Source of the DNA: Robiginitomaculum sp.
GTDB taxonomy: Bacteria; Pseudomonadota; Alphaproteobacteria; Caulobacterales; Maricaulaceae
Direction: 5' to 3'
Length of the DNA stretch: 64,000 nucleotides
NCBI GenBank assembly: GCA_002733495.1
Contig: NVVV01000001.1
Location: 115,795-179,794, forward strand
Notes under the pieces: model-generated
Databases searched by the model: none
The model's input: only the letters and a program-made list of their open reading frames with translations
Told to the model about the DNA's origin: nothing
Shown here: positions 23,012 through 25,966 of the stretch, one piece after another
Position numbering within the stretch: position 1 is the first letter of the stretch
How the letters are laid out: every line of letters starts with the position of its first letter
Translations under genes and position numbers: made by a program

Positions 23012-23644
23012 ATGGATATTGTTCTTCTTGAACGCGTAGAAAAGCTCGGCTCCATCGGCGACGTTGTCACCGTAAAAGACGGCTTTGCCCGTAACTTCCT
23101 TTTGCCGCAAGGCAAGGCCCTTCGTGCCAACAAAGCCAATATCGAGCGCTTTGAACGGGAACGCGAAGTCATCGAGGCCCACAATGCGGAAAAACGTAGC
23201 CTTGCGGAAACCGAAGGCAAGGCACTGGACGGCAAAAACTTTATGCTGATCCGCCAGGCCGGCGAATCCGGACACCTTTATGGTTCGGTCTCTGCCAAGG
23301 ATATTGCCGAAGCCATTGGCGACGGCATTACCCGCTCGCAGATTGTGCTGAACAGCCCGATCAAAGCCGTTGGCATTCACGACGTCCGCATCACCTTGCA
23401 CCCCGAAGTGTTTGTCACTGTCGGCGTCAATGTGGCGCGCACAGCGGACGAAGGCGAACGTCAGGCCGCTGGCGAAAACGTCATTGATGCTTCTCGTAAT
23501 GACGATCGCGCGGCAGACAAGGAAATGGCCGACGATCAGGCTGCCGCCATGTTTGACCCCGAAGCAGAAATTGAGCTGGAAAATACCGGCGAAGATGGCG
23601 AAGCCCCTGCGGATGCAGAGACGGAAGAGGCCAGCGAAGACTGA
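23012..23644 (+). CDS. rplI: 50S ribosomal protein L9 with acidic C-terminal extension
   Basis: MDIVLLERVEKLGSIGDVVTVKDGFARNFLLPQGKALRA; Glu/Asp/Ala-rich C-tail. Confidence 0.97.
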   Translation: MDIVLLERVEKLGSIGDVVTVKDGFARNFLLPQGKALRANKANIERFEREREVIEAHNAEKRSLAETEGKALDGKNFMLIRQAGESGHLYGSVSAKDIAEAIGDGITRSQIVLNSPIKAVGIHDVRITLHPEVFVTVGVNVARTADEGERQAAGENVIDASRNDDRAADKEMADDQAAAMFDPEAEIELENTGEDGEAPADAETEEASED

Positions 23645-23668
23645 TTTTTGTCTTTAGCTAAATTCAAG

Positions 23669-23701
23669 AAAAAGCGGGTCCTTTGTGGCCCGCTTTTTTT
23701 G
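23669..23701 (+). terminator. Rho-independent terminator of rpsF-rpsR-rplI
   Basis: aaaaagcgggtcctttgtggcccgctttttttg. Confidence 0.9.
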
Positions 23702-23742
23702 TGGGTGGCGAATATTTGAACACGCGCGACATATCTATTTGA

Positions 23743-23835
23743 GTCGTCGTGCTCCGGCTTGACCGGAGCATCCATTGGTAAGCTTACCACCCAACCCTGC
23801 ACTATGGACCCTCCGGTCAAGCCGGAGGGCGACGA
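23743..23835. repeat. Family B bipartite palindromic element
   Basis: Hairpins gctccggcttgaccggagc and cctccggtcaagccggagg, mutually reverse complementary, with gtcgtc...gcgac ends. Confidence 0.85.
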
Positions 23836-23876
23836 AGAAGCCAGCGCAGACTGACTTTATTCAGACTTAAAAACAA

Positions 23877-23908
23877 GAAAAGCGGGTCTTTATGGCCCGC
23901 TTTTTTTG
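23877..23908 (+). terminator. Second, near-identical terminator (duplicate)
   Basis: agaaaagcgggtctttatggcccgctttttttg; resembles the 23669 terminator. Confidence 0.8.
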
Positions 23909-24150
23909 TGACTTAGGGAGTGAAATTTATATCGTAACATCTTCACAGGCATTGCCCACTCGGTATAAAGGTTTTTATACTGTAATAGCAGGGAGATATG
24001 AAATGGTTTCGAGTGATAAGTTTAATCTTCTAATTGATCACATACAAAAGGGTATTACCGAATGACGTAGAGGTACACCTTCTCCCCAAGGCGACGAGGG
24101 TTCTGGGTGGGTAGAAAAACATACAGCGGCACAGACTATATACGCCATAT

Positions 24151-24248
24151 CCCCTCACCTCAATCCTCTCCCCAAGGGAGAGGAAGAACCGTCCAGTAAA
24201 CCGAGACTCTTTCTTTCCCTCTCTCGAGGGGGAGGGTTAGGGGCTAGG
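24151..24248. repeat. Family A repeat (cccctcacc..ctctcccc/gggagagg), two inverted copies
   Basis: cccctcacctcaatcctctccccaagggagaggaagaacc and ccctctctcgagggggagggttaggggctagg. Confidence 0.8.
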
Positions 24249-24334
24249 AAAGCACTAGAACAAAATCAAGACCTATGGACTTTTGCGCAAAACCACCGCA
24301 CCTTTGGTAAAAACAAACAAAGGGAAATGTCATC

Positions 24335-25966
24335 ATGTTCAGAGCACCAGTTAAACTTGTATCCATGTGCGCCTGCCTGGCCATATCCGGCGCGGCACAG
24401 GCACAAGAGGCCGTTGATCTTGATATGGTCAATCGTATTCGTGATGAGGGGTTTAATCACTCCCACGTCATGGACAATCTGGGCTATCTGACCGATGTGA
24501 TCGGCCCGCGCCTGACCGGCTCACCACAGCTTAAAGAAGCCAATAACTGGACCCTGGAACAATTTGAGGGCATGGGCCTGAAAAATGGCGAACTGGACGG
24601 CTTTGACTTTGGTCGTGGCTGGTCATTTTCAAAATCTGTGGTGACCATGGCCGCGCCGCGCGAGGCACAGCTCTATGCCCTGCCTCTGGGTTGGCACCCA
24701 GGCACCAATGGTCCGGTCACCGGCGATGTTATGAAAGTGAGCATTAGCTCTGAAAAGGATTTTGAGAAATACGAAGGCAAGTTGGAAGGCAAGATTGTGT
24801 TGCTCAGCAAAGCCAAAAAGAGCAGGCCCGGCAAAGACCCCCGCATGCCAACGTTTAAACGCCTGACCGATGAAGACTTGACAAAACGGGCCGGTTTTAA
24901 CGTACCCGTGGGCGCGCCACAAAATTTGGCCAAATTTGAGAAAAAATTCCTGTTTGAGGAGGAGCTTTACACCTTTTTGCAAAAGGAAGGCGCCGTTGCC
25001 GCGATCAAGCGCAGCCCCCGTGATGCAGCCCTAATCGAAGCTTCGGCCTACCTTTATAAAACCGGGCACACGCCGCAAATTCCGGGCGTATCCATGTCCA
25101 CCGAAGATTATGAACGGATTTTGCGCCTTCTGGATCGCGACAAAACGGTCAGCATCAGCCTGGACGTCGTGGCGCAATATTATGACGAAGACCCCAAGGC
25201 CTATAACACCATTGCGGAAATTCCCGGCAAAGGCTCCAACCCCGAAGTGGTTATGGCCGGTGCTCATCTGGATAGCTGGTTTGTCGGTGATGGCGCTGCT
25301 GATAACGGGGCTGGGTCGGCAGTGATCATGGAGGCGGCACGTATTTTAAGCGCCCTGAATATCAAGCCCAAACGCACGATCCGCTTTGCCCTTTGGGGCG
25401 GCGAGGAACAGGGCCTTTATGGCTCCGCCCATTATGTGCGCACCCATTTTGGTGACCGCCCGGTGATCGACGATGAAGAGCGCGCTCAATTGCCCTCTTT
25501 TTTCTGGTTTAATGAAACATGGCCCATCACCACCAAACCTGAGCACAAAAAGCTGTCGGCCTATTTTAATTTTGATAATGGGTCCGGCAAAATTCGTGGC
25601 ATATATGGTGAAGGCAATGCCGCAGTACGGCCTATATTTGAAAGCTGGTTCAAACCGTTTGAGGATTTGGGTGCCAGCACCATTTCGCTTAACAAAACCG
25701 GCGGCACGGACCATCTTTATTTTCAGTGGGTGGGCCTGCCCGCGTTTCAGTTCATCCAGGACCCGCTGGATTACGGTGCCCGCATCCACCACAGCCAGAT
25801 CGACACGCTGGACCACGTTTCCGAAGCTGATCTGAAACAGGCCTCCGTCATTATGGCCACATTCCTTTATAATGCCGCCATGCGTGATGAACGCCTGCCG
25901 CGCAAACCGCTGCCCACCGAACCGCCTAAAAAGAAGAAGGCCAAAGATGACGAGGATGAGGGATAA
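24335..25966 (+). CDS. Secreted M28 family metallopeptidase
   Basis: Signal peptide; PA-like region; MAGAHLDSWFVGDGAADNGAGSAVIMEAARIL, WGGEEQGLYGSAHYV, TGGTDHLYFQWVGLPAFQF. Confidence 0.9.
   Translation: MFRAPVKLVSMCACLAISGAAQAQEAVDLDMVNRIRDEGFNHSHVMDNLGYLTDVIGPRLTGSPQLKEANNWTLEQFEGMGLKNGELDGFDFGRGWSFSKSVVTMAAPREAQLYALPLGWHPGTNGPVTGDVMKVSISSEKDFEKYEGKLEGKIVLLSKAKKSRPGKDPRMPTFKRLTDEDLTKRAGFNVPVGAPQNLAKFEKKFLFEEELYTFLQKEGAVAAIKRSPRDAALIEASAYLYKTGHTPQIPGVSMSTEDYERILRLLDRDKTVSISLDVVAQYYDEDPKAYNTIAEIPGKGSNPEVVMAGAHLDSWFVGDGAADNGAGSAVIMEAARILSALNIKPKRTIRFALWGGEEQGLYGSAHYVRTHFGDRPVIDDEERAQLPSFFWFNETWPITTKPEHKKLSAYFNFDNGSGKIRGIYGEGNAAVRPIFESWFKPFEDLGASTISLNKTGGTDHLYFQWVGLPAFQFIQDPLDYGARIHHSQIDTLDHVSEADLKQASVIMATFLYNAAMRDERLPRKPLPTEPPKKKKAKDDEDEG

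Follow-up and report, generated by a model that had tools for sequence, protein, structure and literature searches.

The gene of ribosomal protein bL9, rplI, is followed in a Robiginitomaculum-type alphaproteobacterial genome (82 contigs, 5% estimated contamination) by a terminator, a long palindrome and then by what looks like a second copy of its own 3' end and terminator, and the question arises of how this gene came to have two tails. The window, that is the whole stretch of 64,000 nucleotides that was analysed, had been read in an initial annotation as carrying a tandem duplication of roughly 209 bp at this place, with which the palindrome was mobilised or which it had triggered. Partial gene duplication occurs at rearrangement or illegitimate-recombination joints. 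The interval between rplI and the gene of an M28 peptidase shares with such joints the repeated 3' gene ends at a synteny breakpoint and a possible microhomology; it differs in that the second copy still has the appearance of a working rplI end whose terminator is intact, and this copy may stem from a related species. On balance we consider it probable that the rplI–M28 interval represents a composite recombination scar, the left joint of which coincides with the end of a REP dimer, both sharing the motif GACGA. The features concerned are compiled in Table 1.

Table 1. Features between rplI and the M28 peptidase gene; positions are those of the window.
Feature	Position	Strand	Description	Basis
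rplI (ribosomal protein bL9)	23012..23644	+	intact, 210 aa; final 21 nt form tail copy 1	Pfam L9_N and L9_C; orthologues across genus
Terminator 1	23668..23703	+	rplI's own terminator; loop of 6 nt, like those of G002, G006, G012	fold -18.4 kcal/mol, z -4.9; orthologous terminators
Spacer	23704..23743	.	~40 nt, present once; no repeat after terminator 2	sequence; alignment ends at TGTG
CGTC-tagged REP dimer	23744..23835	.	92 bp, TCGTC...GACGA, two inverted REP units of ~32 nt	repeat comparison; hairpin -60.9 kcal/mol; class in PMC3733652
Tail copy 2	23831..23854	+	GACGAAGAAGCCAGCGCAGACTGA, rplI C-terminal codons ..DEEASAD-stop; first letters overlap GACGA end of REP dimer	alignment, genus search
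Terminator 2	23876..23911	+	unbroken stem; loop of 5 nt (TTTAT), the same as in the rplI terminator of relative G004	fold -19.1 kcal/mol, z -5.7
Orphan ORF	23892..24065	+	57 aa	no homologue found
Displaced 3' tail of hemB	24084..24114	+	in frame with stop (..PKATRVLGG-stop)	matches hemB 3' end of same genome on C24
M28 peptidase	24335..25966	+	first gene of the block brought beside rplI by rearrangement	Pfam PF04389; neighbour of hemB in G004

The similarity of the second rplI tail to the first is far above chance. The coding ends, GAAGAGGCCAGCGAAGACTGA (23624-23644) and GAAGAAGCCAGCGCAGACTGA (23834-23854), are identical at 19 of 21 positions, and a local alignment of 23620-23703, comprising the rplI 3' end and the hairpin terminator, with 23831-23910 gave 70 identical columns out of 86, gaps included; in a DNA search of 18 congeneric genomes, the identity between the two tail copies amounted to ≈ 81%. 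With the terminators removed, the tail alignment scored 20; 2000 dinucleotide shuffles averaged 8.2 and reached 17 at most, and the best score among 3740 other segments of the window was 15. The initial annotation was therefore right that the rplI 3' end and terminator recur downstream and that the second segment should align better than random, as it does against every shuffle and every other window segment sampled; merely the start of the repeat had been placed one base too late, at 23625 instead of 23624.

The differences between the copies are distributed in an uneven manner, with 2 of 21 positions changed in the coding end and 2 of ≈ 33 in the terminator, that is 4 of 54 for both together, compared to 11 of 28 in the linker. 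For a freely drifting copy, ≈ 10 changes would be expected in those 54 positions (P 0.012, for a simple model with few sites), and the same uneven pattern is seen when functional rplI ends are compared across species. Such divergence looks more like that between two rplI alleles than that of a dead copy. We infer that the second tail was for a long time a working rplI end, be it a relative's allele or an old copy with its terminator still under selection. On folding, both terminators form a strong hairpin with an intact stem, followed by a U run, and terminator 2 shows the GC-rich hairpin with subsequent T run of an intrinsic terminator; it is 98% identical over 41 nt to the rplI terminator of relative G004 (G004:C10:28243-28283) in the search of the 18 congeneric genomes. 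A simple consensus terminator scan listed neither terminator 1 nor terminator 2, and a sub-threshold match of both to the Rfam family L20_leader was treated as chance.

When 23834-24334 was used as a query in the DNA search of the 18 congeneric genomes, its first 77 bases matched rplI 3' ends only, while the remaining matches were to dispersed repeats and to M28-side sequence further along the query. These matches to rplI loci only trace the second copy to an rplI 3' end, in agreement with the initial annotation, and a remnant rplI tail with a tandem terminator, itself intact, has been left at the site. At present the second tail likely acts as a back-up terminator at most. In the seven relatives checked, the interval from rplI to the next conserved gene contains no second rplI tail, and these single-copy relatives show that the second tail is derived in this lineage; the comparison with relatives, which the initial annotation had put forward, is informative to that extent and says nothing on the mode of origin. 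Tree placement of 85 bp (curated columns) gave the best likelihood with tail 2 outside the line of its own genome (G000), and sisterhood of the two tails was not rejected (p-AU 0.18); the genus tree thus slightly favours an origin outside the species' own line. Tail 2 scores 49 with tail 1 and 48 with the best relative's rplI end, and it may be an old self-duplicate or an arrival from a relative, ≈ 85 bp being too short to choose. No donor or intermediate chromosome for the second tail was found in the genome collections.

The gene order around the joint is unusual for the genus, in which rplI is normally followed by dnaB, either directly or after inserted genes, and in which a conserved block consists of enoyl-CoA hydratase, an acyl-CoA-dehydrogenase-like gene (acdh), hemB, (M28) and lpd (G004, G012, G017, G003), with hemB directly preceding M28 in G004. 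In the present genome, it is M28/lpd that adjoins rplI. The dnaB gene is found on contig C8, preceded by a transposase-like gene and with foreign sequence beside it, and hemB on contig C24 (site at G000:C24:5516-5543) no longer has its native stop; its frame continues into foreign sequence, which begins with an accessory-gene fragment; the Agrobacterium relative of this fragment adjoins the defence gene dsr1 on a plasmid. Judged by gene order, the rplI–M28 site is a lineage-specific synteny or rearrangement breakpoint, and the displaced tail of hemB lies within it. The simple local event assumed in the initial annotation is not supported, because the second rplI copy sits at such a breakpoint, together with a hemB tail. 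Both lpd and rplI look native by identity to relatives; a foreign origin of the M28/lpd block was considered and rejected, lpd being closest to G002, G006 and G012, like fabD and dnaB. For the orphan ORF, no Pfam match and no relative in 137 family and 385 class genomes, plasmids or phages was found, and it is apparently a 3' fragment of an accessory gene. The idea that it might be the missing C-terminus of the fragment after hemB was dropped, as the full-length Agrobacterium relative matched the N-terminal fragment, not the orphan.

In this context, a survey of the rplI–dnaB interval in G003, G004, G010, G012 and G017 revealed accessory genes that differ by species, and G003 and G012, which are not close, share an antitoxin-like gene there (90%). 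This suggests that the rplI–dnaB interval is a variable exchange site; a literature search for an rplI–dnaB insertion hotspot found nothing. Upstream of dnaB in the present genome (positions 1-2400 of locus L156, on G000:C8), a Fic-type and a transposase-like gene, both named by eye, are found instead of rplI.

The palindrome had been described as lying exactly between the copies, which is correct for its right end, abutting the second tail with zero gap, but not for its left end, located ~40 nt from terminator 1. It is intergenic, and it starts with TCGTC at 23744 and ends with GACGA at 23835, as most copies in the genome do in like manner; the REP unit reads GTGCTCCGG-CTTGA-CCGGAGCAT followed by CCAT, in accordance with the stem of 8-9 bp, the loop of 4-5 nt and the CCA-fitting tail by which CGTC-tagged REPs are defined. 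There are 58 matches in the genome, arms and strands counted, and 16 near-complete dimers (this copy and 15 others) were examined, in addition to many single units. A class of CGTC-tagged REPs had already been described by Di Nocera et al. (2013; PMC3733652), with no dedicated transposase reported for it. The dimer at hand shares with this class the CGTC ends, the short stem, the 5-nt loop CTTGA and the CCA-type tail, and the inverted dimers with variable spacers and many copies in an alphaproteobacterial host, and here, too, no REP units lie beside the Y1 transposase genes of the genome; the element itself differs in nothing, the unusual feature being the copy of a gene tail abutting one of its ends. 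With the REPIN/RAYT systems of the GTAG type (PMC3116915) it has in common that two inverted REPs form one hairpin of ~100 nt. Assignment as a REPIN with cognate RAYT was rejected in view of the CGTC tag and of the two Y1_Tnp loci of the genome, one of them at a contig edge, beside which no REP units are found. By its sequence the element between the rplI tails is thus a member of a known repeat class and no new kind of element. A match of the Rfam family mir-m21-1 to the dimer (window 23752-23827, both strands), far below the gathering score, probably arises by chance from the long hairpin and was treated accordingly. In relative G012, a decayed REP dimer occupies the corresponding position behind the rplI terminator; it scores 34 with the present copy and at most 24 with other copies. 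The age of the dimer at this position is nevertheless uncertain, because no REP dimer follows rplI in G002, the sister of G012, or in G006.

How, then, did the second tail come to lie at the REP end? One route would be a local duplication, in which replication was halted by the REP hairpin and the polymerase went back from the GACGA end to the similar letters in rplI, so that tail and terminator were recopied, with the copies drifting apart thereafter and the rearrangement following later as an unrelated event. The exact abutment of the second tail on the REP end, the strong hairpin (Table 1), the resemblance of tail 2 to tail 1, which equals that to any relative's rplI end, and the sister placement that the tree test leaves standing are all consistent with such a course, for which we would allow perhaps one chance in a few. 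Against it speak the divergence, uneven as between functional alleles, and the best likelihood, with tail 2 outside the line of this genome. Furthermore, a tandem copy should have brought along spacer and REP; the unit of ~209 bp proposed in the initial annotation is unsupported, because spacer and palindrome both occur once and nothing after terminator 2, where the similarity ends at TGTG, resembles the spacer. As a general trigger the palindrome likewise lacks support, because only one of the 15 other near-complete REP dimers has flanks with a similarity above all mismatched-flank controls, and this one is situated in a REP array.

That the repeated gene ends are attachment-type ends of an element integrated into the 3' end of rplI and later deleted nearly completely, with the hemB tail as the same type of scar at a second site, is improbable. 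It would explain why both duplicated segments are gene 3' ends and why hemB on C24, devoid of its own stop, runs into a foreign gene with an Agrobacterium plasmid relative beside a defence gene. Yet neither an integrase gene nor any other mobility gene lies at the joint or between the copies, just ~130 bp separate the two rplI copies, and the end repeats are ~81% alike, where an island would show an integrase and matching end repeats; those relatives checked that have genes between rplI and dnaB consistently lack a far-end rplI copy. We regard it as similarly doubtful that the rplI–M28 joint is an assembler artefact. The 82 contigs, the 5% contamination and the short repeats at the joint, REP among them, would invite a chimeric assembly, but these repeats are not long and match imperfectly (32 exact bases at most), both sides look native by identity, and the hemB break on C24 provides an independent trace of a real rearrangement. 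At an equally low level of confidence one may speculate that REP hairpins are fragile joints which capture 3' gene ends from related species, so that displaced tails such as those of rplI and hemB would mark a repeatable route of exchange or rearrangement in the genus.

For the composite recombination scar that we favour, a CGTC-type REP dimer would at the outset have stood beyond the rplI terminator. Illegitimate joining at the right end of this dimer, via the shared GACGA, may then have added a further rplI 3' end with its terminator. In a rearrangement specific to the lineage, this second tail would have been fused to the hemB locus on its M28 side, with the hemB tail carried along. We infer both the order of these events and the microhomology step; the shared GACGA comprises only 5 letters, and the match to the present tail 1 needs a one-base gap.

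While this is otherwise ordinary genome evolution, the scar shows a repeat-rich boundary that was rewired while an essential ribosomal-protein gene and its stop signal stayed intact, and the pairing of two displaced gene tails, of rplI and hemB, is of modest interest. Before a local duplication is invoked for repeated gene tails in one genome, these should hence be set against the sequences of neighbouring species. Beyond the hemB tail, at 24144-24260 of the window, there is a second dispersed short repeat family of the CTCTCCC...GGGAGAG type, members of which occur in most genomes of the genus, often in many copies each.
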